Shown here one piece after another: positions 5,064-49,705 of a stretch of 64,000 nucleotides of DNA (the first letter of the stretch is position 1; each line of letters starts with the position of its first letter). A program made the position numbers and the translations under genes. This DNA is from Nocardia amamiensis NBRC 102102. Its GTDB lineage: Bacteria; Actinomycetota; Actinomycetes; Mycobacteriales; Mycobacteriaceae. The stretch spans positions 1 to 64,000 of the forward strand of contig NZ_BDBA01000012.1 of NCBI RefSeq assembly GCF_001612745.1, given 5' to 3'. The notes beneath the pieces were generated by a model, which saw only the letters and a list, made by a program, of their open reading frames with translations, searched no databases and was not told the origin of the DNA.

Positions 5064-5639
5064 ATGGGCCAACCTCCGGCACAGATTCGCGGTGCCCGGC
5101 TGCGGAAAGCCGTCATCGACGCGACGCTCGCCCGCATCGAGTCGGTCGGCATCGGCAACGTGCGGGTCGCCGATGTCGCCGCGGACGCGGGCGTGCACGA
5201 GACCTCGATCTACCGGCGGTGGAAAACCCTGCCCAAGCTACTGCTGGACGCGCTGCTGTCCCGGATGGCCGAGGAGATCCCGCTCCCGGACACCGGGTCG
5301 CTACGCGGCGATCTGGAGCGATTCATGACCGACCTCATCCGCTTCGCGGAAACGCCGTCGGGCATGGCCTTGATCCGCGGCACGGTGATCGGCGACGCCG
5401 ACCCGGACGTCGACGCCACGCGGCGGGAGTTCTGGATGCGGCGGTTGTCGGTATCCGAGGAGATCGTCCGGCGTGGCATCGCCCGCGGTGAGATCGCGTC
5501 GACGGCGGACCCCCGGCTGACCATGCTGACCCTGGCTGGTGTGGTCCACCTGCACGTCACCCAGCTAGACGCGGCGCTGCCCCCCGGCCTCGCGCGCGAT
5601 GCCGTCGATCTCGTCGTGGGCGGGATCGCACCGCACTGA
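5064..5639 (+). CDS. TetR/AcrR family regulator
   Basis: 191 residues. The N-terminal HTH (about 20-62, with VRVADVAADAGVHETSIYRRW) is typical TetR; the C-terminal half is a helical effector domain with no recognised ligand signature. It is divergent from the carboxylesterase, with two palindromic operators between, so it is the probable local repressor of that gene. The stop codon lies at the beginning of a tandem 117-bp repeat that resembles the 3' end of this gene. Confidence 0.85.
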   Translation: MGQPPAQIRGARLRKAVIDATLARIESVGIGNVRVADVAADAGVHETSIYRRWKTLPKLLLDALLSRMAEEIPLPDTGSLRGDLERFMTDLIRFAETPSGMALIRGTVIGDADPDVDATRREFWMRRLSVSEEIVRRGIARGEIASTADPRLTMLTLAGVVHLHVTQLDAALPPGLARDAVDLVVGGIAPH

Positions 5640-5903
5640 ACACAGGCCGCACGTGCCACCCCAAGACGCTGATCGAAGCCTGGGTCCGCGGCTGGCGCGA
5701 TGTCCTGGCGCGTGAGGCCACCGATCCCGTCCCGGGGCGGAATCACACGGCGCTGAACGCAGGCCGCACGGCCACTTCGAAACACTGATGGAAACCTGGG
5801 TCCGCGGCTGGCGCGATGTCCTGGCGCGCGAGGCCGCCGATCCCGTCCCGGGGCGGAATCACACGGCGCTGAACGAGGCCGCACGGGCCGATATTTCGGA
5901 ATC
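5634..5903 (+). repeat. Tandem ~117-bp direct repeat downstream of the TetR gene (2.3 copies)
   Basis: Copies at 5634..5750 and 5751..5866, and a partial third copy from 5867. Each begins with a variant of CGCTGAAC(G)CAGGCCGCACG and ends GGGGCGGAATCACACGG. The unit end resembles the TetR 3' end (codons for GGIAPH and stop), so the array may come from duplication of that gene end. No coding function is apparent; 5904-6021 holds only the promoter side of the next gene. Confidence 0.85.
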
Positions 5904-23919: not shown

Positions 23920-24816
23920 TCAGGCCGGGTGCGCGGTGCGCCAATGTTCGGCGATGTCGATTCGCCGGGTAATCCACACCTGGTCGTAGGACTGCACATG
24001 GTCGAGCAAGCGCTCCAGGGCTGCGGTGCGGGCGGGACGTCCGATCAGGCGGCAGTGCAGCCCGATCGACAGCATCTTCGGGCTGCCTTCCGCGCCTTCC
24101 CGGTAGAGCACGTCGAATGCGTCGCGGACGTGGGCGAAGAACTGCTCGCCGGTCGGGAAGCCCGCGGGCGAGGCGAAGCGCATGTCGTTGGTGTCGAGGG
24201 TGTAGGGCACCACCAGGTGGTCGCGGTCGTGCACGCGTACCCAGTACGGGAGGTCGTCGGCATAGGAATCGGCGTCGTAGACGAACCCGCCGTGCTCCAC
24301 CACCAGCTCCCTGGTGTGCGGCGAATCGCGCCCGGTGTACCAGCCCAGGGGTGCGGCGCCGGTCAGGTCGGTCAGGATGCGCACGGCCTCGGCCATGTGC
24401 GCGCGTTCGGTGTCGCGGTCGGTCAGCTGGTAGGACCTCCAGCGCAGCCCGTGGCAGGCGATCTCGTGGCCGAGTTCCCGGAAAGCGGCCACCGCCTCCG
24501 GGTTGCGCTGCAGGGCGCGGGCGACGGCGAAGACGGTCAGCGGCAGCCCGCGGCGTTCGAAGACGCGCAGCACTCGCCATAGTCCAGCGCGGGAGCCGTA
24601 CTCGTAGAGCGATTCCATGCTCATATGCCGGTTCGGGAACGCTTCCGCGGGTGTCATTTCCGACAGAAACGTCTCAGAATGTGCGTCCCCGTCGAGCACG
24701 TTGTTCTCGCCGCCCTCCTCGTAGTTGAGCACGAACTGGATCGCGATCCGCGCGTCGCCCGGCCACTTCGGGTCCGGCGGGTTCGGGCCGTAACCGACGA
24801 AATCCCGCTCGCTCAT
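23920..24816 (-). CDS. puuE: Allantoinase PuuE-type polysaccharide-deacetylase-fold protein
   Basis: 298 residues. The N-terminus DFVGYGPNPPDPKWPGDARIA and the NodB-fold core (VNYEEGGEN, HGLRWRSYQLTDRDTE, GWYTGRDSPHTRELV, DSYADDLPYW) match PuuE, the metal-independent allantoinase of Pseudomonas. It should open the hydantoin ring of (S)-allantoin to allantoate, the substrate of allantoicase, whose gene lies just upstream. Its ATG overlaps the stop of a 47-codon ORF that also overlaps the allantoicase stop, so all three are coupled. It is the last gene of the purine operon. Confidence 0.88.
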   Translation of the reverse strand: MSERDFVGYGPNPPDPKWPGDARIAIQFVLNYEEGGENNVLDGDAHSETFLSEMTPAEAFPNRHMSMESLYEYGSRAGLWRVLRVFERRGLPLTVFAVARALQRNPEAVAAFRELGHEIACHGLRWRSYQLTDRDTERAHMAEAVRILTDLTGAAPLGWYTGRDSPHTRELVVEHGGFVYDADSYADDLPYWVRVHDRDHLVVPYTLDTNDMRFASPAGFPTGEQFFAHVRDAFDVLYREGAEGSPKMLSIGLHCRLIGRPARTAALERLLDHVQSYDQVWITRRIDIAEHWRTAHPA

Positions 24817-24956
24817 ACCTGGACCTCGCTAACGCGAGGCTCCGGCACCAGCGAGTGCCCGGCCCGTCCGCTGCGCTCCCCCATGGCCTGCGCCTCACCG
24901 GCGCCCGGCTCCGGCACCAGCGAGTGCCCGACTGCATCGATGACACGCCCGCTCAT
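24813..24956 (-). CDS. 47-residue bridging ORF between alc and puuE
   Basis: It starts with an ATG that overlaps the alc stop (ATGA) and ends with a TGA that overlaps the puuE start (ATGA). The product is two copies of a 22-residue unit with the shared core GHSLVPEP, encoded by a 68-bp-spaced direct repeat. I know no homologue. It may exist only to carry ribosomes across the gap, or may be a decayed duplication of the puuE leader. Confidence 0.4.
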   Translation of the reverse strand: MSGRVIDAVGHSLVPEPGAGEAQAMGERSGRAGHSLVPEPRVSEVQV

Positions 24957-25930
24957 GCGCCGAGCTCTCCGTACAGCCGCAACCGCGCCAGTCCACCGTC
25001 GGGGTAGATGTCAAGGCGGACCTCTTCCACCGACGCGGCCATCGGTGCGATCGGGAACCGGTGTCTGGTGTCGGGCTGTAGCGCGGTGCGCGGCAACAAC
25101 TCCAGTTCGGTGCCGTCGGCGGTGCGGCCGGTGAGCCGAGCCGCGCCCGGGTTGTTGCCCAGGAAGTAGGAGGTGTCCAGCTCGGCGAGGCGGATCAGTC
25201 CCGGCCCGGCCAGACGGATACGCACCCAGTCGTTGCCCTCGTCCCTGCGGCGGGCGGTCTCCCAGCCGTCGCCCATGGACCGGGCCAGGCCGGGATAGAG
25301 CAAGTGGTTGGGCGAACTGTAGAAACGGTTGGAGCAGTCCAACACCAGTGCGCCGTTCTCCAGTGCGGCCAGGTCCAGCGGCCCGAGGCCGAGCAGACGC
25401 GGATCGGGTCTTCCCTCGCCGTGCACCCGCAACCGCGCCACACCGCCGTCGGGATGCATGGTCAGCTTCACGTGCGTCCAGCGTTTCTCGTTCTCGACGG
25501 TGAACAGGTTGCGGCGGTCGCCAGCGACCGGGGAACGGTCGATCAGGATCACCCAATCATCGCGTGCGGCAATGGTTTCCGCCGGAGGATAGTCCTCGAT
25601 CTCCAGCGCCGACACCGAAACCGCGGGCGGGTAGTTGCCCGAGAACCACGCGGTGTCGACCATGATGCCGCGGATCACGCCCGGCACGCCCAGCCGCACG
25701 ATCGCGGAATCGTCGCCCGGCTGCCCGCGGTGCCTGCGGGTCTCCCAGCCGTCGTAGATCTGACCCTTGTGCCCGAAGGTGGACGGCCGGTGCTCGGCGG
25801 GGCCGGGATTGATCAAATTCTCCTTCTCGGCGAAGAATTCGTCATCGGCCCAGATCACCGAGCCGCCGAGCGGGCGGACCGCCAGATCGGGCAGCAGCAT
25901 GAACTCGTCGTCCTCGACGCCGTCGTGCAT
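24953..25930 (-). CDS. alc: Allantoicase
   Basis: 325 residues, made of two related beta-jelly-roll modules (each with DGWET(A)RR and a following RLG/LAGPG-I-R segment), as in allantoicase. It hydrolyses allantoate to ureidoglycolate and urea. ATG 25930 is chosen for the site AGGAGGCGCG and the family start (FMLLPDLAVRPLGGSVIWADDEFF). A GTG at 26044 would add 38 residues and would overlap the stop of the preceding small ORF. It is followed without gap by a 47-residue ORF and puuE. Confidence 0.92.
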   Translation of the reverse strand: MHDGVEDDEFMLLPDLAVRPLGGSVIWADDEFFAEKENLINPGPAEHRPSTFGHKGQIYDGWETRRHRGQPGDDSAIVRLGVPGVIRGIMVDTAWFSGNYPPAVSVSALEIEDYPPAETIAARDDWVILIDRSPVAGDRRNLFTVENEKRWTHVKLTMHPDGGVARLRVHGEGRPDPRLLGLGPLDLAALENGALVLDCSNRFYSSPNHLLYPGLARSMGDGWETARRRDEGNDWVRIRLAGPGLIRLAELDTSYFLGNNPGAARLTGRTADGTELELLPRTALQPDTRHRFPIAPMAASVEEVRLDIYPDGGLARLRLYGELGA

Positions 25931-26040
25931 CGCGCCTCCTGGGTCTTCGCGGGACGCCCGCACCTGGTCGGGGCGATGAGGCGCTCCGCGATCGGCCACG
26001 CCTTCGGCGTCGTCCGGAGCCGCACCGTTCGGTAGGCCGC

Positions 26041-26124
26041 TCACAACTTCGCCTCGTTGGCGCTCGGCTCCGTCGTGCGCGGCCGCGCCCTGCGTCCCAG
26101 GTTCACTCGCTGACGCTCCATCAC
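26041..26124 (-). CDS. 27-residue bridging mini-ORF 2 (upstream of alc)
   Basis: GTG at 26124 overlaps the stop of mini-ORF 1, and its own TGA overlaps a GTG in frame with allantoicase. The product (ERQRVNLGRRARPRTTEPS...) is arginine-rich and aligns with mini-ORF 1 (RQRVNRGCRALPRTMELS), so the pair is a diverged tandem duplication. No RBS-based evidence for independent translation. Confidence 0.35.
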   Translation of the reverse strand: MMERQRVNLGRRARPRTTEPSANEAKL

Positions 26125-26198
26125 GACTGCACCTCGCCGACACTCAGCTCCATCGTGCGCGGCAGCGCCCTGCATCCCCGATTCACTCGCTGCCTCAC
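26121..26198 (-). CDS. 25-residue bridging mini-ORF 1 (after DUF6986 gene)
   Basis: GTG at 26198 overlaps the stop of the DUF6986 gene (GTGA) and the TGA at 26121 overlaps the next mini-ORF start. Together with mini-ORF 2 and the extended alc frame it leaves no untranslated base between the DUF6986 gene and alc. Whether the peptide matters is unknown. Confidence 0.35.
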   Translation of the reverse strand: MRQRVNRGCRALPRTMELSVGEVQS

Positions 26199-27541
26199 GT
26201 CGACTCCTCCGGAACCGGTGCGCGCGCCGCCAGTGCGCGCAGCACCCTCTCGGTCAGCTCGGGTACGCCCGCGGTCGGCCGGGCCCCGCAGTCGATGCCG
26301 CGCAGTACTGTGGCGGCCATCGCTTCCGCTGTGGCGGGCTCGTCCATGATGTCGCCGCCGCGGCGGGCCAGATAATCCAGCAGCCGCGGCACCGCCACCT
26401 CGATGGCCTGGCGGAAGAAGTCGTAGGTGGCCAGCCAGCGCGTGACCAGGTGACCGGGATGCATGTCCCAACCCTGGTAGTACCCACGCCGCAGGGCTCG
26501 GGCTACCAAGCGGTGATGATTGCGCAGCGCGGCCTCGGGGTCGGCGTCGGGCACGATCTGGGTGGAGCCGTCGCACACCCACACCCCGGTCTGGGCGGCC
26601 GCGACCTGCATGACCGCCTTGGCGTAATCGGCGGCCGGATGGTCCAGCGCCTGGTCCGGCGCGGCGACGCCGCACGCCGCGGTGTAGTCGTAGGTGCCGA
26701 AATGCAGTCCACTGCAACGTCCTTCGGCTAACGTCAGCATGGTGGCCACCGGAGCGGTGCCGTCCGCGGCGAGAATCGCCTGCGGGCTCTCGATCTGCAA
26801 TTCGAACCGCAAACTGCCTTCCGCGATGCCGTAACCGCGTTCCAGCCCGACGCACAACTGCACCAAAGCGGGGATTTGCCGCGCGGCACGAATTTTCGGA
26901 ACTGTGAAGACGAATCCCTCGGGCACGCCACCGGCGGCTTCCAACACCAGGTCCAGGGTGCGCAGGGCACGACGCCGCTCGCCACTCGACAAGCCCTTCA
27001 TCCGGATGCCGCTGCTCGCCGGGCGCGGTCGCTCCGCCCGCGCGTCGACGATCTGCTGCGACTGGTCGAAGTGCTGCTGGTGCGGGAGGCCCGGGTGAGG
27101 CTCGCCAGGTTCGGTGATGCCTGCCGCGACCACGGACTCGCCGACAGCCGAGCTACGGGAGCGCCGCGACCAGGCCGCGAGCACGGCACCCGCCGCCGTG
27201 GCCGCGCGGTCCTCCTCGGCATCCGTGCGCAGGCCGTAGCCGTCCTCGAAGTCGATGCGCAGATCTTGGACCGGGTCCTGTTCCAGCCGCTTGCGGACGT
27301 CGGGCAGCGACCCGGTTTCGTCGAGGGTGGCCAGCAGGTCCTGGTGGCGGTCGAGCAATTCGACCGCGGTGGCGCCCCATTCGGCAGGGGTCTCCTCCGC
27401 GACTCGGTCGGCCGGAACGTACACCGTGTGGATCGGCTGCGACCTGCCGTTCGATCCCGGATACCTCCGGCGCAGCTCGGCGTCCACCGTGTCGAGCATC
27501 GCCTCGATCCTGGCGCGGACATGCTCGGGCACCTTGGTCAT
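26195..27541 (-). CDS. DUF6986 family aldolase/lyase (HpcH/HpaI, citrate-lyase-beta fold)
   Basis: 448 residues. TIM-barrel CitE/malate-synthase-like features are visible: DLRIDFEDGYGLRTDAEED (metal or substrate acid cluster), RFELQIESPQAIL, and GRCSGLHFGTYDYTAACG. DUF6986 proteins occur next to ureide genes in actinobacteria. A plausible job is cleaving or condensing the C2/C3 product of the pathway (ureidoglycolate, glyoxylate), but this is inferred from context. Its ATG overlaps the xanthine dehydrogenase stop (ATGA). Confidence 0.75.
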   Translation of the reverse strand: MTKVPEHVRARIEAMLDTVDAELRRRYPGSNGRSQPIHTVYVPADRVAEETPAEWGATAVELLDRHQDLLATLDETGSLPDVRKRLEQDPVQDLRIDFEDGYGLRTDAEEDRAATAAGAVLAAWSRRSRSSAVGESVVAAGITEPGEPHPGLPHQQHFDQSQQIVDARAERPRPASSGIRMKGLSSGERRRALRTLDLVLEAAGGVPEGFVFTVPKIRAARQIPALVQLCVGLERGYGIAEGSLRFELQIESPQAILAADGTAPVATMLTLAEGRCSGLHFGTYDYTAACGVAAPDQALDHPAADYAKAVMQVAAAQTGVWVCDGSTQIVPDADPEAALRNHHRLVARALRRGYYQGWDMHPGHLVTRWLATYDFFRQAIEVAVPRLLDYLARRGGDIMDEPATAEAMAATVLRGIDCGARPTAGVPELTERVLRALAARAPVPEEST

Positions 27542-30500
27542 CGCGACTCCTTCTTCCGCAGCGCGGCCCACACCCGGTCCGCGGTCATCGGCAGGCGGTC
27601 GAGGCGGACGCCGACCGCGTCGCGGATCGCATTGGCCAGCGCGGGCGCGACCGGGTTGTACGGCGACTCGCTCATCGATTTCGCGCCCAGCGGCCCGAGG
27701 GTGTCGGCCGTATCGGCGAAGTACACCTCGGTGCGGGGCACGTCAGCGAACTGTGGCACGTGGTAGTGCCGCAAGGTCTGCGTGAGCACCACGCCGTGGT
27801 CGCTGCGCATGTCTTCGTACAGCGCGGTGCCGATGGCCTGCGCGACACCGCCTTCCACCTGTCCACGGCACTGCACGGGGTTGAGCACCGTGCCGGCGTC
27901 GGCCGTCTGGATCGACTGGAGGATGCGGACCGAGCCGGTGCCAGGATGCACCGCCACCCGGAAAGCGTGCACGTTGAAACTCACCGACCTGGGGCTGCCC
28001 GCGTGCTCGGCGCGCGCTGTCAGGTCGCCGGGAGCCAGCAGCTCGGTTGCGCCGAGTAGCTGGTCATCGCAGTGCACGCCGCCGGGTGTCAGCACGCAGT
28101 CGTGCTCCGGAACGCCCGACAGCTCGGCCGCTCTGGCCAGCAGCAACCCGCGCAAGGCGCCGGCTGCCGCGTAGACGGCCTTACCCGCGACCACGATGCC
28201 GGTGGAGCCGAACGCGCCGGTGTCGTACTCCACCAGGTCGGTGTCGGCATGCCGGATCACGATGCGGGACACGTCGGTGTCCAGCGCGGTGGCCGCGAGC
28301 TGCGCATGCACCGTCGTCGTGCCGTTGCCGAATTCCGCTGTGCCGACGCGGATCTCGTAGCGTCCGTCGGGCAGCAGCGACGCTGTCGCCGTCGATCGGT
28401 GGCCGCGCGGCGGGATGGTCGCGATCATCGCGGCGGCCATCCCGGTGCCGACGCGCCACTCCGGGCCGGGCGCGTGCACGTCATTGCCCCGCAGTAGTGC
28501 CCGCTCGGCCAGGTCCAGGCACTGATCCAAGCCATAGCTGCCGAACATCAGGTCGCCCTCGTTCACCGCGGCCCCGACGAACCGATCGCCGGGCACCACG
28601 ACATTGCGGCGCCGGAATTCGAATGGGTCGATGCCGAGCGCGTGCGCGAGCTCGTCCAGCGCCGACTCGACCCCGAAGATCACCTGCCCGAGTCCGTAAC
28701 CGCGGAATGCCCCGGAGGGAACGTTGTTGGTGTACACCGCTTGGGCGTCGACGCGCTTGTTGGCGCAGCGGTAGAGCTCCACCGACTCACCCACGCCGTG
28801 GAACATCACGCCGCCGCTGTGGTTGCCGTAGGCCCCGGTGTCCGCGAGTACGTCGACGGCCAATGCGGTCAGCACTCCGTTCGCGTCGGCGCCCGCCGTC
28901 ACGGCGACCCGCATCGGGTGCCTGCAGGTCGCGGCGGTGAACTCGTCGGAGCGGGTGAACTCGTACTGCACCGGCCTGCCGGTCCGCAGGACGGCCAGCG
29001 CGATCAGGTCCTCGGCCAGCATCTCCTGCTTCGCGCCGAATCCGCCGCCGACCCTGGCCGCGAACACCCGAACCCGCTCGGACGGCAGTCCGAAGACGCG
29101 ACACAGTTCGGCGCGCACCAGGAATGGAACCTGGGTACTGCATCGGATGACCAGCCTGCCCGTGTCGTCCAGCCATCCGACCCCGCCATGTGTCTCCAGG
29201 TGCACGTGCTGCCCGCGCGGTGAATGCCACACACCACGCACGATTTGGGCCGCTGCCGCCAGACCCGCCGCCATGTCGCCCACCTCGCCGTGCACTTCGG
29301 CGACCAGATTACGGCCGGGATCGTCGATCCGCGCCGAATCCGGCTTGTCACCATGCAGTTTCGGCGCGTCGGCTCGTAACGCTTCCTGCGGGTCGAACAC
29401 CGCGGGCAGCCTCTCGTAGTCGACGTGCAGCAGCCGGACCGCCGCGCGGGCGGTCGCCACGCTCTCCGCCACCACCGCCGCCACTCGCTGTCCGACGAAT
29501 CGGACCGTCCGGTCCAGTACGTAGGTGTCGTCGGGATCGTCCGTCCGCAGCTCATGCCGTGCGGTCGAGAACGCTACGTCCGGCGCGTCGGCGTAGGTCA
29601 GCACAGCATGCACGCCCGGCAATGCCTCGGCGTCCGCGGTGTGGATCGATCGAATTCGCGCGTGCGGGTATGGACTTCGCAAGACCGCGATATGTAGCGG
29701 TGCGGTCGGGGGCCCGTCGGCCATTCCTATGCTTTTCTCCGCGGCGGAACCGGCGACGAACTCGCCCCCCGTCGCGGCCTGCGGCACGACCGCGGTCGGG
29801 GGCACCGCGGCCACATCGCCCGTTCCGCGCCTGCTCTCCGCAGCGAAATCGGCGGCGAACCCGCCCGCGGTGGCGGTAGGGGGCACAGCCACGGTCAGCG
29901 GCGCGGCCGTGTCACCTATTTGCGGAGCGTCCATCGTGGCGGAAGTAGCGGCGCGCTCACCTGCGATGGCGGCAGGCGGCAGATCGAAGGTGAAGGGCTC
30001 GCTGCCGGTGACGATGCGCGGTCCGGCAAGGGCGCCGACTCCGGTGCCCGCGCCGCCAGCCGCCGTCACGGCCTGATCCGGCGCTATGGCTGCCGGGTCG
30101 TCCGGTGTCTGCGGCTCACCCAATGCCGCGCGGATCGCGCGGTAACCCGTGCAACGGCACAGGTTTCCCTTCATCAATTCAGCAAGTTCGCTCTCGCGTC
30201 CGCCAAGTGGTCCCTCCGGGGCGCACTCCAGTCCCGCGGCGGTGACGACCATGCCCGCGGTGCAGAAACCGCATTGGAATCCGGCGTTGTCGACGAATCG
30301 GCGCTGCACCGGATGCGGGTGCTCCGGCGTCCCGAGCCCGGCAGCCGTCGTGATGGAACGGCCGGCCGCGCGATAGGCGGGAAACACACAGGAGTGCAGC
30401 GCCATTCCGTCGACCAGCACCGAGCAGGCCCCGCAATCGCCCGCGTCACATCCCTTTTTCACGGCCAGGTGCCCAGTCTCACGCAAGGCCGTGCGCAGAC

Positions 30501-30561
30501 ACTGCCCTGGCCGCACCTCGAACTCGACGGGCTTGCCGTCCACTTCGAACCTGATCACCAT
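27538..30561 (-). CDS. xdh: Xanthine dehydrogenase: fused 2Fe-2S and molybdopterin subunits
   Basis: About 1007 residues. The N-terminal 160 carry two [2Fe-2S] clusters (CDAGDCGAC...C and CGFC...CRCTG). Residues from about 270 form the Mo-binding part: SPYPHARI, GQRVAAVVAE, ARVGGGFGAKQE, GAFRGYG, and the C-terminal SMSESPYNP glutamate. The linker (about 170-285) is alanine/proline-rich with three degenerate repeats (TVAVPPTATAGGF, AAVPPTAVVPQAATGG). The FAD subunit is the separate upstream gene. The enzyme oxidises hypoxanthine or xanthine to urate. ATG 30561 or GTG 30558; the GTG overlaps the stop of the preceding ORF. Confidence 0.9.
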   Translation of the reverse strand: MVIRFEVDGKPVEFEVRPGQCLRTALRETGHLAVKKGCDAGDCGACSVLVDGMALHSCVFPAYRAAGRSITTAAGLGTPEHPHPVQRRFVDNAGFQCGFCTAGMVVTAAGLECAPEGPLGGRESELAELMKGNLCRCTGYRAIRAALGEPQTPDDPAAIAPDQAVTAAGGAGTGVGALAGPRIVTGSEPFTFDLPPAAIAGERAATSATMDAPQIGDTAAPLTVAVPPTATAGGFAADFAAESRRGTGDVAAVPPTAVVPQAATGGEFVAGSAAEKSIGMADGPPTAPLHIAVLRSPYPHARIRSIHTADAEALPGVHAVLTYADAPDVAFSTARHELRTDDPDDTYVLDRTVRFVGQRVAAVVAESVATARAAVRLLHVDYERLPAVFDPQEALRADAPKLHGDKPDSARIDDPGRNLVAEVHGEVGDMAAGLAAAAQIVRGVWHSPRGQHVHLETHGGVGWLDDTGRLVIRCSTQVPFLVRAELCRVFGLPSERVRVFAARVGGGFGAKQEMLAEDLIALAVLRTGRPVQYEFTRSDEFTAATCRHPMRVAVTAGADANGVLTALAVDVLADTGAYGNHSGGVMFHGVGESVELYRCANKRVDAQAVYTNNVPSGAFRGYGLGQVIFGVESALDELAHALGIDPFEFRRRNVVVPGDRFVGAAVNEGDLMFGSYGLDQCLDLAERALLRGNDVHAPGPEWRVGTGMAAAMIATIPPRGHRSTATASLLPDGRYEIRVGTAEFGNGTTTVHAQLAATALDTDVSRIVIRHADTDLVEYDTGAFGSTGIVVAGKAVYAAAGALRGLLLARAAELSGVPEHDCVLTPGGVHCDDQLLGATELLAPGDLTARAEHAGSPRSVSFNVHAFRVAVHPGTGSVRILQSIQTADAGTVLNPVQCRGQVEGGVAQAIGTALYEDMRSDHGVVLTQTLRHYHVPQFADVPRTEVYFADTADTLGPLGAKSMSESPYNPVAPALANAIRDAVGVRLDRLPMTADRVWAALRKKESR

Positions 30562-31025
30562 CCCCATCCCCCTTCCCAGGTGACCTCGCGCCAGCCACTC
30601 ACACCCATGGCCGAGCGCAGGCACCGGCCCGATCGCGGCTCGATCCAGACGCGCCTACCGTCCACCCGGAACCGCATCACCAATCCCACCCCTGCGGCCC
30701 TCCAGCGACCTCGCGCCGACCGCTCAGGCACTGGCCCCGCCGCGGCTCGAATCCGACGGATCTGCCGTCCACTCCGTACGGCACCAGTTCCGCTCCCCCG
30801 GTTCCAGCGACCTTCCGATGGCCGCTCACAGCCAGGGCCGTGCGCAAGCGCTGCCCCGACGCCTCGATTCAGGCGGGTCTGCGGTCCGCTCCGAACCGCA
30901 GCACGACTCCCGTTACCCGGTTCCGGCGACCTCACGATCACTGCTCGCGCACAGGGTCCTGCGTAGGCGCTGGCCCGACGGCACCTCGAACTCGACGAGC
31001 TTGTTGTCCACTCGAGCCGCGTCAT
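30555..31025 (-). CDS. 156-residue bridging ORF made of decayed copies of the xdh 5' end
   Basis: Stop-free from an ATG overlapping the FAD-subunit stop (ATGA) to a TGA overlapping the xdh start. The DNA holds four degenerate copies of the first ~75 bp of xdh, spaced 107-123 bp (minus-strand GTGGAC anchors at 31012, 30889, 30772 and 30665, and 30543 in xdh itself). The last copy still reads MRFRVDGRRVWIEPRSG, against MVIRFEVDGKPVEFEVRPG in xdh; the others are out of register, so the product (W/R/S-rich) is not a ferredoxin domain. Possibly untranslated; possibly a coupling spacer. Confidence 0.4.
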   Translation of the reverse strand: MTRLEWTTSSSSSRCRRASAYAGPCARAVIVRSPEPGNGSRAAVRSGPQTRLNRGVGAALAHGPGCERPSEGRWNRGSGTGAVRSGRQIRRIRAAAGPVPERSARGRWRAAGVGLVMRFRVDGRRVWIEPRSGRCLRSAMGVSGWREVTWEGGWGW

Positions 31026-31870
31026 GATGCGCGTTCCCGTAGTTCACCGGCGACCTCGCGGGCGAGCAGCCCGGCGACGTGCCGCCGCCACTCCGGCGAA
31101 CCGTGCGGGTCGTCGAACCAGAGCGTGGTATCGATCGCGTCGAGGGCGTCCCGCAGCTCGGGGTCGCTCGGCGGTGCGGCGAAGTCCAGGACGACCGGCT
31201 TGGTCGTGGCGGCCGTGATGGTGACCGCGCTGCGGCCGTCCGGATCCCGCCGCCCCATCACCAGCGCACCGGACCGGCCGAGTGGAGCAAGCGCGATCTT
31301 CCGAAAGCTGGTGTGCGCCAGCAGACTCGATTGAGGCAGGTAGATCGAGCGCAGCACCTCGCAGGGCCGCAGGGCGGTGTATCCAGGACCGAGGACGAAG
31401 TCCCGCAAGGGAATACCGCGATCGATGCCGTCCGCCGCCCACACCAACGCCAAACCGTCGAGCGCGACCAGCGCGCCGAGCACCGCGCCGGCGGGCAGCG
31501 CGAGACAGACGTTGCCTCCGACGGTCGCGGTGCGCCAGATCTTGTGTGAGGCCAGCAGCGCCCGGCAGGACTGCGCGAACAGCGCCGTCCCCGGCCACTG
31601 GTCGCGCAAAACCGGCGCGCCCAGCTCACGCCCCTGCGCCGCCCCCGCGAAATCGGCCAACGTACAGGTCGCGGCGATCTCCAGGCCGTCGTCCACCACC
31701 TCGAACGCGGGCCAGCCCATGGTCGTGATGTCGACCAGGCGCACCAGCTGATCCTGCGGTTCGGAGAACAGAAAGGTGCCGCCGGCGAGCACCGCGGCCG
31801 ACTCGCCGAGCAGGGTCAGGTCCGCTCGCTCGCGGGCGATCACCACTTCCCGGATCGTGTCCAGGTCCAC
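31022..31870 (-). CDS. Xanthine dehydrogenase FAD-binding subunit
   Basis: 282 residues of the CoxM/XdhB-type FAD-binding fold. Flavin motifs are LLGESAAVLAGGTFLF near the N-terminus and TATVGGNVCLALPAG in the middle, with the CO-dehydrogenase flavoprotein C-terminal domain after about 180. It passes electrons from the Fe-S clusters of the fused subunit to NAD+. The start is GTG 31870 with CGAGGTGAG upstream, and it is separated from the deaminase gene by an 829-bp repeat-filled gap. Confidence 0.85.
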   Translation of the reverse strand: MDLDTIREVVIARERADLTLLGESAAVLAGGTFLFSEPQDQLVRLVDITTMGWPAFEVVDDGLEIAATCTLADFAGAAQGRELGAPVLRDQWPGTALFAQSCRALLASHKIWRTATVGGNVCLALPAGAVLGALVALDGLALVWAADGIDRGIPLRDFVLGPGYTALRPCEVLRSIYLPQSSLLAHTSFRKIALAPLGRSGALVMGRRDPDGRSAVTITAATTKPVVLDFAAPPSDPELRDALDAIDTTLWFDDPHGSPEWRRHVAGLLAREVAGELRERAS

Positions 31871-31899: not shown

Positions 31900-32699
31900 G
31901 GTAGAGCCAGTCGGTTGCCGCCACATTGCGCGCGACGCACGCCAGATTGCGCGGCCGTTACCTCGCCGCGCGACGACCGCCCGCGGCAGGGAGCTACCGC
32001 TGCCGCGCCCTTCCCAGGCGCGCCATCCGCGATCCAGAGCTCCCGCCCGCCTCCGCGAGTCGTCCGAGCCGACACTGCTTCAGTATCTCGCGTACAACCT
32101 GACCAGGCACGACACCTCGCTCACCGCCGCGATTGCGCACCGCGCCCGCGCTGCTTACCAGCACCGCAATCCGATCACGGCGTCTCACCATCGCGCGTGC
32201 GCGACCTCCCAGCCAGACACCGGTGACAGCGTCCACCGCACCGCCTCGCCCAGCGCGTTTTCGCACATCACCAGCAAGTTTGTAGCGTCAACACCCGCAT
32301 CCCCGATCAGCCCGCCGCCTCCCCCACGACGTCGAGGTACACGGCAACGCCGGCACGCCGGATCGCCATAGCACGGACCCGACAGCCGGTCCGGGATCGT
32401 CTTCGACTAGCGCTTGGAACGGCATCAGCCACACCAGAGCGGTCTCGCCAACAGCCTGCAAGTCCCTGTCCCGACACCCGCGCTACGAGTGGCGCGACCC
32501 GCTCATCACGCCTTCCAACACCCGCCACCCGCGCGCGACGCCGACGTGCATCGCAACGCCGTCACGGCGGATCGCCATGGCGGGCAGCCGACATGCCGGT
32601 CCGCGATCGGCCCCGACCAGCGCTCGGAACAGATCGCCCACACCGGAACGGTCTCGCGCATCACCAGCAAGCTCGCGCTGCTCCACTACCCACGCCCGA
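31900..32699 (-). repeat. Degenerate ~210-bp tandem repeat array between two purine genes
   Basis: The 829-bp gap has no recognisable gene. On the minus strand, a unit with the core RDRSGV.D...(R)AMAIRR.GVA is seen at about 32686-32483 and 32477-32307, and a weaker third copy (RARAMVRRRDRIAVL) near 32170. Small ORFs of 67 and 56 codons follow the copies. The first unit begins at the deaminase stop. The origin of the unit is not recognised. Confidence 0.65.
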
Positions 32700-47933: not shown

Positions 47934-49705
47934 CTCCCGTCCGGGGCTGTCGATGCCGCCGAACCGCGGCCGCACTCCACGCCGCAACACCGGCAACAAG
48001 CGCGCCACCGCGCGCGCCCGTCCGATTCCGCGCCACACTTGCCCTGCACACACCGGAATCCCCGCCGCCCGACGCGGGCGTCTCCTTTCCTGCCGCGTGT
48101 GCGGCGGCATGGGCGCTACCAGGAACTACTGTGCCGAACATGGGAACAGAACAGCCGGAGACTCCCGCACCCTCCGGCGTAACCAGACCCGGATCGCCCG
48201 GGCCGGAGTTCGCCTGCTCCGGCGCCACACCGGACATGGCCGCACAGTCCGCGACCACACCTGTCCCGGCCGCTGCGACTCGATCGGCCGCGCCATCACC
48301 GACCCCGGACGCGGTCGAACAGCACCGGGGACCCTCGCACTCCAGCACTACCAGGCCAACCTCGCACACGGAGGAGTTGAGACGCTCCGCCGCACCGGAT
48401 ATGGCCGCACAGTCCGCAACCACGCTCGGCCCGGCCTCGACTCGATCAGCCACGCCATCACCGGACGCAGCCGCGGTCGAACAGCACCGGGGACCCTCGC
48501 ATTCCAGCGCTACCTGGCCCAGTGCGCACACGACGACGAAGTCGACCCGCTATGCCGCACCGGACATGACCGAACAGTCCGCAATCACGCTCGGCCCGGC
48601 CGCTGCAACTCGATCAGCCGCGTCATCACCGGAACCGGACGCGGTCGAACAGCACCGGATGCCCCCGCACTCCAGCACTACCATGCCAAGCTCGCACACA
48701 ACAGAGGTGACCGGCGATACCGGACTGGACATGGCAGCACAGTCGGCGACCCCGCTCGGCCCGGCGGCTATCACGAGATCTGCCGCGCCATTGCCCAGTG
48801 ACGCGCTTGTGCTCGGGTTGGATGTCGGTGGAACCACCATCAAAGGAGAGATCACCGATGCTGGAGGCACGGTGCTGGCCGTCGCCGCGGTCGCCACGCC
48901 GCGCGGCGCGGCCGCCTTCGACGCCATGGGCGAGCTGGGTGAGCGATTGCTGGCCGAGTTAGCGGAATCCGACCGGGGCCGCGTCGCCCGTGCGGCCGTG
49001 GTGCTGCCCGGAATCGTCGACCCGGGCCGATCCATCGCGGTGTTCAGCAGCAACGTCGGCTGGCGCGACGTGCACGTCGGCGACCGTTTCACCAAGCGCT
49101 GGGGCATGCCTACCCTGATCGAACACGATGTCGCCGTCGCGGGTTGGGCGGAAGGGCACTACGGCGCCGGACAGGGCCACGAGAACGTGTGCGTCGTCAT
49201 CCTCGGCACCGGCATCTCCGGCACGCTGTCCGTCGGCGGTCGGCTGGTGCGCAGCGGCTACGGACAGGTCGGCGAATACGGGCACATACCGGTACGGCGC
49301 GACGGATTGCCCTGCCCGTGCGGCAACACCGGCTGCGTCGAGACGATCGCCTCGGGCGCGGCGATCGCACGGGCCTACACCCGTCGCACAGGACGCGAGA
49401 TCGACGGTGCCGCCGATGTTTTCGAGCGCATACCCACCGATCCCGACGCCGCGGCCGTGCTCCAGGACGCGATCGACGCACTCGCCGACGGACTGGTGGG
49501 CATCGTGCACGCGGCCTGCCCCGAACTGATCGTTCTCGGCGGCGGACTCGCCGGAGCCGGCGCCGCACTCACCGAGCCACTACACCGAGCACTGGCCGAC
49601 CGCCTCCGCCTGGTCCCCGCACCCCGTGTTGTGCTCGGCGAATTCGGCGCACGCGCAGGTCTGGCGGGCGCAGCGCTCCTCGCACGGAAGGGGGCGCTGG
49701 CATGA
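47930..49705 (+). CDS. ROK-family sugar kinase with long repeat-bearing N-terminal extension
   Basis: 591 residues if started at ATG 47930. The C-terminal ~310 are a complete ROK kinase: VLGLDVGGTTIKGE (phosphate loop), GIVDPGRSIAV, LIEHDVAVAG (catalytic Asp), and the zinc motif CPCGNTGCVE. It probably phosphorylates imported N-acetylgalactosamine or -glucosamine. The first ~267 residues hold three 55-residue units (MAAQSATT...VEQHR.P.HSS) that repeat every 165 bp, at 48236, 48401 and 48566; the fourth start, at 48731, precedes the kinase domain. ATG 48731 may therefore be the real start, with the extension a stack of duplicated leaders. Confidence 0.8.
   Translation: MTPVRGCRCRRTAAALHAATPATSAPPRAPVRFRATLALHTPESPPPDAGVSFPAACAAAWALPGTTVPNMGTEQPETPAPSGVTRPGSPGPEFACSGATPDMAAQSATTPVPAAATRSAAPSPTPDAVEQHRGPSHSSTTRPTSHTEELRRSAAPDMAAQSATTLGPASTRSATPSPDAAAVEQHRGPSHSSATWPSAHTTTKSTRYAAPDMTEQSAITLGPAAATRSAASSPEPDAVEQHRMPPHSSTTMPSSHTTEVTGDTGLDMAAQSATPLGPAAITRSAAPLPSDALVLGLDVGGTTIKGEITDAGGTVLAVAAVATPRGAAAFDAMGELGERLLAELAESDRGRVARAAVVLPGIVDPGRSIAVFSSNVGWRDVHVGDRFTKRWGMPTLIEHDVAVAGWAEGHYGAGQGHENVCVVILGTGISGTLSVGGRLVRSGYGQVGEYGHIPVRRDGLPCPCGNTGCVETIASGAAIARAYTRRTGREIDGAADVFERIPTDPDAAAVLQDAIDALADGLVGIVHAACPELIVLGGGLAGAGAALTEPLHRALADRLRLVPAPRVVLGEFGARAGLAGAALLARKGALA
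48236..48730 (+). repeat. Three exact-length 165-bp tandem units upstream of the ROK domain
   Basis: Unit starts (ATG) at 48236, 48401 and 48566, with the ROK-proximal copy at 48731: spacing is exactly 165 each time. The units differ at many bases and unit 2 has a one-codon deletion offset by a one-codon insertion, yet none has lost the frame. Each resembles the first codons of ROK plus its upstream leader. Confidence 0.85.

Follow-up and report, generated by a model that had tools for sequence, protein, structure and literature searches.

In the 64,000-nt window analyzed here (Nocardia amamiensis NBRC 102102, contig NZ_BDBA01000012.1, positions 1 to 64,000; contig C12 of a genome assembly of 8.24 Mb in 487 contigs), we identified three spacers in a minus-strand purine operon that are crossed by small open reading frames (ORFs) with a 4-nt stop-start overlap at both ends, the arrangement that marks translationally coupled ORFs. 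Two of these spacers, between the DUF6986 gene and alc (DUF6986-alc) and between alc and puuE (alc-puuE), are most likely copies of a dispersed repeat, here denoted R1, that sits at start codons and is an analogue of the mycobacterial interspersed repetitive unit (MIRU), and the third, between the FAD subunit gene and xdh (FAD-xdh), is most likely a duplication of the junction in which the frame was kept. Ribosomes leaving one gene are probably passed on to the following gene by the mini-ORF of the repeat. An earlier note on this DNA had described small ORFs of 156, 25, 27 and 47 codons that cross the spacers without an untranslated base, and we confirmed these ORFs together with the overlaps. 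The description of the spacers as diverged repeats is likewise correct: the FAD-xdh spacer holds four copies of the 5′ end of xdh, and the spacers around alc consist of paired units, 82% alike over 72 nt 5′ of alc and 82% alike over 44 nt, in truncated form, 5′ of puuE.

BLAST searches with the DUF6986-alc and alc-puuE spacers returned 47 and 45 places, respectively, in the genome containing the window (self and weak matches included). The R1 model, built from 35 aligned units, yielded at least 133 matches in this genome at E ≤ 1 and at least 124 at E ≤ 0.01, among the best 150 of 16134 first-look candidates, and these matches form 96 arrays (68 single, 21 double, 5 triple and 2 quadruple). 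The unit extends over ~80 bp from RTGA to RTGA, with single units mostly of 60–81 nt, and its length is typically 2 mod 3, so that stop-start coupling survives the insertion. R1 units also lie within a few bases of the ends of contigs C119, C140, C186, C37, C20, C213, C144 and C217; the assembly therefore seems to break at the arrays, and the copy numbers are probably underestimates. R1 is present in 54 of 59 Nocardia genomes, with 0 to at least 76 copies per genome, the extremes being low in G011, G020, G021, G033 and G055 and high in G000, G005, G009, G017 and G041. When the best 29 candidates per genome were considered across the family to which Nocardia belongs, R1 was found in 12 of 151 genomes, ten of them Nocardia (including that of the window) and the others from genera g13 and g16, and no match was found in 28 of the 31 genera sampled.

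To characterize the sites, we trained a codon model on 123 long ORFs and used it to classify the flanks of the 96 arrays. Downstream, the terminal RTG serves in frame as the start of a sense gene in 53 arrays, the other classes being other sense (10), antisense (10), weak (19) and contig edge (4); on the upstream side, 25 arrays open with the stop codon of a sense gene, and the others were classed as other sense (20), antisense (7), weak (36) or edge (8). The common rule is therefore a start codon at the 3′ end, with coupling to an upstream stop in a subset of arrays. Within this subset of 25, 18 arrays relay, that is, their mini-ORFs lead from one end to the other, 2 fuse in frame, 2 carry CTG at one end where a standard start would be expected, and 3 run into unread bases where the contig stops; none was seen frameshifted. 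The start-adjacent class (53 arrays) comprises 39 relays, 7 fusions, 6 arrays without a 5′ start and 1 that breaks, whereas the 26 arrays away from starts (downstream antisense or weak, upstream not coupled) include 4 that relay, 5 that fuse, 11 without a start, 4 that overrun and 2 that break. This contrast in relays (Fisher p = 1e-6) leaves out 17 of the 96 arrays, namely, arrays with another sense start, arrays at a contig edge, and arrays that are coupled upstream but have a weak downstream flank. The register (2 mod 3 per unit) is found in 36/53 start-adjacent arrays compared to 8/26 away from starts (p = 0.003), and the former fraction also differs from one third (p = 5e-7). When only arrays scoring at least 60 bits are considered, 27/36 start-adjacent arrays relay compared to 2/10 of those away (p = 0.003). 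Outside Nocardia, 13 R1 copies of G070 (g13) comprise 10 that relay, 1 that fuses, 1 without a start and 1 that overruns, and in G099 (g16), 3/3 copies relay.

The 3′ end of R1 is marked by a GAGG motif exactly 7 nt 5′ of the terminal start in 69 of 91 well-scored units, compared to 19 of 2996 RTGA sites in 240 kb; this and the codon analyses leave out 42 of the 133 units, which score below 45 bits, contain unread bases or are shorter than 60 nt. In the RNA consensus, the first two bases of the start codon lie in a stem, the opposite arm of which changes along with them, ATG being found with one arm and GTG with another. The hairpin is paired in 94.7% of cells compared to 86.8% in shuffles, and 43 cells are changed on both sides compared to 19 in shuffles and 2–6 in slid controls. 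In single folds of 41 units, the mean pairing probability of the start codon is 0.82, whereas shuffled units give 0.55 and 25 ordinary coupled junctions 0.53; pairing of the GAGG region (0.52) was not above the controls (0.56 and 0.65) in the same kind of folds.

From these features, we infer translation of the mini-ORFs, reinitiation at their overlaps and unmasking of the downstream start. The ancestral junction would have been a bare RTGA overlap, and an inserted element would leave RTGA at both ends with a mini-ORF between them (mostly 20–27 codons, 2 mod 3 from RTGA to RTGA). After finishing the upstream gene, a ribosome would reinitiate first on the mini-ORF and subsequently on the downstream gene; with GAGG placed 7 nt before the terminal start and that start paired in the hairpin, translation of the mini-ORF would open the downstream gene. 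Selection would preserve the coupling and the total register, but not the peptide, and would be the cause of the register; at FAD-xdh, a local tandem duplication across the junction would have arisen with the relay kept.

Comparison of orthologous junctions revealed both empty and filled sites. In G005, the nearest relative found (FAD protein 93% identical), DUF6986 and alc meet in a bare GTGA overlap with like flanks, and therefore the two units in the window look recent. The GTGA overlap also opens alc in L091–L096 and G005, which identifies the GTG as the native start of alc; what the earlier note had called an in-frame alc extension is a misreading. The alc-puuE junction is a bare overlap in several relatives, among them L091, L097, L102, L103, L105, L107 and L113, and carries inserts, all of them relayed, in the window, G005, L092, L093, L094, L095 and L096, those of L093, L094 and L096 being mutually related. 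Between the genes that, from their protein sequences, we take to be thrS and HIT, the genome of the window has two units, and the junction is a bare 4-nt overlap, aligned from the first residue, in 11 of 28 loci read (29 other loci were compared and one was excluded for want of an upstream gene), with other inserts in some of the remaining loci. The thrS-HIT junction of G047 (L266) carries three tandem ~75-nt units of unrelated sequence, in which TAG is directly followed by ATG and a purine-rich GGGAGGCG precedes each start, possibly a third type of relay, without overlap. At the junction of the presumptive moeA and moaCB, named in the same way, three units are found in the genome of the window and a bare overlap in 18 of 29 other loci. 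Two of the own-genome sites (L253 and L283) are relayed, with the last mini-ORF ending exactly on the downstream start, and L254 behaves likewise (25 codons). At a further orthologous site, the gene of which is presumably SepF, the genome of the window has two units relayed as 27 + 27 codons, whereas the two units of G138 and the three units of G165 each form a single ORF, of 54 and 81 codons, respectively, that ends exactly on the start; thus, with 2, 2 and 3 units in the three genomes, the relay is kept at 160, 161 and 242 nt.

The FAD-xdh spacer has a different origin. The first ~80 nt of xdh are repeated in it four times (scores 43–62; shuffled maximum 29), and none of the R1 matches among the 150 scored candidates of the genome falls within this spacer. 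Six close relatives (L091–L096) have a bare TGATG overlap at this junction, and a long homologous insert was found in G005 only (20 other genomes were searched); this insert is 67% identical and spans 350 nt with a 117-codon ORF, ATGA to GTGA, in register. Judging from the sequence comparison, the spacer appears to be a local tandem duplication of the junction with the relay retained, which would represent a second route to the same state. Thus, the tandem duplication of junctions proposed in the earlier note applies at FAD-xdh but not at DUF6986-alc or alc-puuE, where copies of a dispersed repeat have been placed at the overlap.

Furthermore, we identified a second Nocardia repeat family (family 2) with the core CCCGGAGG(A/C)GGCAGCG, different in sequence from R1 and present at no more than 2 mismatches in 54 of 59 Nocardia genomes. 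Its units are mostly 74–77 nt long with RTGA ends and resemble the relay design (L342, L343, L345–L364 and, at alc-puuE of G005, L339). The frame was read at 23 loci (L342–L364), 20 of which were picked from the core list with a preference for tandem clusters, and L341, which has no RTGA in the stretch read, was left out. Seventeen of the 23 loci begin on the upstream stop, and 15 of these 17 finish in frame with the gene (mini-ORFs in 12, read-through in 3), the exceptions being L345 and L362; among the six loci that do not begin on the upstream stop, L349 alone attains this frame, starting from a stop within the unit. In L346, L347, L351 and L358, successive 75-nt units share one frame, and the overlap is regained by a last step of 74 nt. 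Taken with the array register, the inserts of relatives and the copies in other genera, family 2 supports the earlier proposal that the frame is kept for stop-start coupling.

Several observations weigh against this reading and have to be set beside the evidence above. No single junction is striking in a GC-rich genome, and relays are common in shuffled sequence: in dinucleotide shuffles with fixed length and ends, the full relay appears in 8.6% at FAD-xdh, 33% at DUF6986-alc and 56% at alc-puuE, and, when 0–2 bases are added, in 8.7%, 28.7% and 25.1%, respectively, with a product of 0.006. For nine junctions with inserts, from the window and its relatives and each of them relayed, the product is 7e-7, with the downstream start of multi-part inserts set by homology with the empty site, but it is not a fair p-value given that these were chosen among junctions already seen filled. 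The signal comes from the genome-wide family, its register and the comparison of species, not from single junctions. The gene calls rest on a home-made codon model, and 36 of the 96 upstream sides are too weak to call, so that many copies may sit in leaders rather than between coupled genes. The start-adjacent class demands an intact terminal RTG, and part of the relay contrast is therefore built in; among arrays scoring at least 60 bits, the register contrast is not significant (25/36 compared to 4/10, p = 0.14). Furthermore, one R1 copy of G070 at a coupled-looking site (L245) overruns, and relay-free gaps are found at DUF6986-alc (L104, L106, L108, L110, L111 and L113), xdh-DUF6986 (L097 and L098) and FAD-xdh (L104, L105, L106, L109 and L110). 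As to the frameshifts in relatives that the earlier note had named as a refuting result, none was seen in the close-relative inserts read at alc-puuE and FAD-xdh, but the relay-free gaps listed here are found in other relatives. For the hairpin, two of five covariation measures are unexceptional: pairs with two-sided change number 5 compared to 3.9 in shuffles (112/500 shuffles reach 5) and further pair types 16 compared to 14.3 (56/500 reach 16), and two subfamilies carry much of the signal, so that independent events are few. At FAD-xdh, the pieces of the FAD 3′ end between the xdh copies fall below the 99% shuffle level and are suggestive only.

The shuffles leave room for a passive origin, in which the open frames are a by-product of GC-rich, stop-poor selfish repeats inserting at RTGA and the relay is inherited from a chance 80-nt unit. 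That shuffled inserts of the window relay in 9–56% at fixed length, that 9 of the 26 copies away from starts relay or fuse too, and that the open 80-nt form is common to many units all agree with such an origin, which we nevertheless consider unlikely. A length of 2 mod 3 is found in 15 of 18 single units of 60–77 nt at starts, compared to 4 of 18 single units of all lengths away from starts; the presumptive SepF site keeps its relay at three total lengths by different routes; family 2 arrays, built mostly of 74- or 75-nt units, finish in frame with the gene at 15 of the 17 coupled sites; and the FAD-xdh relay is kept in two species with different copy numbers.

The earlier note had also considered peptides with a job, and many units indeed have peptide ends in common (SER at the start and an EPSASEAQ-like string at the end), with gene-like GC by codon position in the short units of the window. 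However, functional small peptides are a very improbable explanation of the mini-ORFs, and this candidate was rejected on the codon-position and synonymous tests. Over 39 distinct 80-nt units, the synonymous share of single-change codon pairs is 0.222 in the relay frame compared to 0.335 and 0.372 in the other frames, third codon positions are not the most variable, and no purifying selection on the peptide was detected in these units, with subfamily 2 alone giving a mixed result (0.273 in the relay frame, between 0.204 and 0.431 in the others; subfamily 1, 25% compared to 33% and 29%). The middle of the peptide differs between subfamilies, and family 2 has a different sequence. The 156-codon ORF is not coding-like, with a score below 0 on the codon model and flat GC by codon position, and neither it nor the 47-codon ORF matches a Pfam family at E ≤ 0.001. 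Apparently, the frame is kept and the peptide is not. Repetitive extragenic palindromic (REP) elements, which are associated with tyrosine transposases of the RAYT type, are dispersed, short and hairpin-forming, as is R1, and R1 could be imagined as REP-like palindromes spread by a RAYT (Y1, HUH) transposase, with the position at start codons reflecting purging elsewhere. The copy-rich G009 and G053 each have one match to Y1_Tnp (PF01797), but this domain has 0 matches in the genome of the window and is absent from 50 of 59 Nocardia genomes, including the copy-rich G005, G017, G041 and G045, and G055 has three Y1_Tnp matches without any R1 copy. Mobilization of R1 by RAYT is unsupported, and we give this explanation little credence, although an ancient or external source of Y1 is conceivable.

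The features of the purine operon in the window are listed in the table. The gene products match the Pfam families FAD_binding_5, xanthine dehydrogenase domains, DUF6986, allantoicase and polysaccharide deacetylase, and the closest named relatives of the alc protein are from N. araoensis, N. exalbida and other Nocardia species.

Table. Genes, spacer ORFs and repeat units of the purine operon in the window.
Feature	Position	Strand	Evidence
FAD subunit gene (PF00941), 5′ of first spacer	31022..31870	-	ORF list, Pfam
156-codon spacer ORF, ATGA (start ATG 31025) to GTGA at xdh 30558	30555..31025	-	ORF list, repeat comparison, codon model
Copy 1 of xdh 5′ end	30944..31018	-	Local score 62 vs shuffled maximum 29
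Copy 2 of xdh 5′ end	30825..30897	-	Score 43
Copy 3 of xdh 5′ end	30722..30779	-	Score 46
Copy 4 of xdh 5′ end	30595..30680	-	Score 52
xdh, fused Fe-S + molybdopterin subunits, GTG start	27538..30558	-	ORF list, Pfam
DUF6986 gene (PF22484), stop at 26195	26195..27541	-	ORF list, Pfam
Relay unit A, 25 codons, starts GTG 26198, dispersed repeat	26121..26198	-	Model R1 match 26120-26199
Relay unit B, 27 codons, GTG 26124 to GTGA 26044	26041..26124	-	Model R1 match 26040-26125
Unit B terminal hairpin; 3′ arm includes first two bases of alc start codon	26043..26076	-	Alignment A1 columns 53-87, row L001
alc (PF03561), native GTG start 26044	24953..26044	-	Pfam, junctions of relatives
47-codon spacer ORF, two truncated units, ATG 24956 to ATGA at puuE 24816	24813..24956	-	R1 matches 24880-24957, 24812-24885
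puuE-like polysaccharide deacetylase gene (PF01522)	23920..24816	-	ORF list, Pfam

Other repeats in the window include a diverged direct duplication with ~209-bp spacing 5′ of the FAD gene (32327-32671) and two tandem repeats, one of 165 bp × 3.4 (48224-48791) and one of 116 bp × 2.6 (5588-5886).

Among known systems, R1 most closely parallels MIRU (Supply et al. 1997, as cited in PMC12548453, PMC3914561 and PMC2734929), which is defined in PMC3914561 as a 46–101 bp repeat scattered over the chromosome and partly tandem. R1 has this size and dispersal, its single units being mostly within that range and 28 of its 96 arrays consisting of 2–4 units. According to a 2025 review (PMC12548453), MIRUs seem to be mobile and to enter at start codons, where they contribute an ORF with −4 nt coupling; R1 is likewise found at start codons and contains an ORF coupled in this manner. 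The two differ in unit length, ~80 nt in R1 compared to ~53 nt in MIRU, and in distribution. A MIRU-core pattern, searched at no more than 1 mismatch in 401 genomes, was found in 20, of which 19 belong to genus g29 (inferred to be Mycobacterium) and one to g6, and in 0 of 52 Nocardia genomes, whereas R1, among the best 29 candidates per genome, matched only Nocardia, g13 and g16 in the 31 genera sampled. In g29, 12 of 19 MIRU-core loci were readable and 7 were not, and in 9 of the 12 the NTGA-type ends are separated by 50 or 53 nt, which is 2 mod 3. Two of these nine loci have a second possible reading, and one of the nine is flanked by genes for a histidine kinase and a response regulator. 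Profile comparison of R1 and the MIRU core with nhmmer in both directions gave no significant kinship (best E 0.11 and 0.01, with small sets), and the short GAGCGNAGCGA-like string that they have in common was noted by eye only. By analogy, then, the Nocardia R1 element would function like MIRU. The same review describes termination-reinitiation coupling at ATGA overlaps, with the start codon in an RNA structure that upstream translation may open. R1 has in common with such coupling the −4 nt overlaps and the start codon in an RNA structure, but here the coupling would be rebuilt by an inserted repeat and passed through one to several mini-ORFs.

In the open-licence literature, judged by title and the start of the abstract, we found no description of the R1 family or of family 2 in work on Nocardia repeats or coupling, and a text search with the R1 repeat string returned no title on such repeats. 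Interspersed repetitive units and translational coupling were found together only in PMC12548453. The principle is known, and the Nocardia families and the comparative tests appear to be new within the open-licence literature searched. It is conceivable, although on balance doubtful, that MIRU, R1 and family 2, among which we detected no sequence kinship, converged on one portable design. Such a design, portable between repeat families of Mycobacteriales, would combine NTGA-type ends at a start codon with a path of mini-ORFs whose length puts the ribosome in frame with the gene; in R1, the terminal start is also preceded by a purine-rich motif and lies in a hairpin that would mask it.

To conclude, the MIRU principle, described until now for mycobacteria, is here extended to a minimum of two Nocardia repeat families, and the analysis includes empty sites, a test of register and a set of contrasting arrays away from start codons. 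Convergence, if true, would point to common insertion machinery that recognizes translation starts or coupling sites, and coupling cassettes would then be a general, low-cost way for DNA to enter operons. The wide contrast in R1 copy number among Nocardia genomes should be useful for finding the mobilizing gene, and loci with variable copy number might serve Nocardia typing. For genome annotation, short ORFs between operon genes may be relays rather than genes. Furthermore, gene pairs such as alc-puuE, thrS-HIT and moeA-moaCB, which differ between genomes in having 0 to 3 inserted mini-ORFs, provide a natural experiment on termination-reinitiation.

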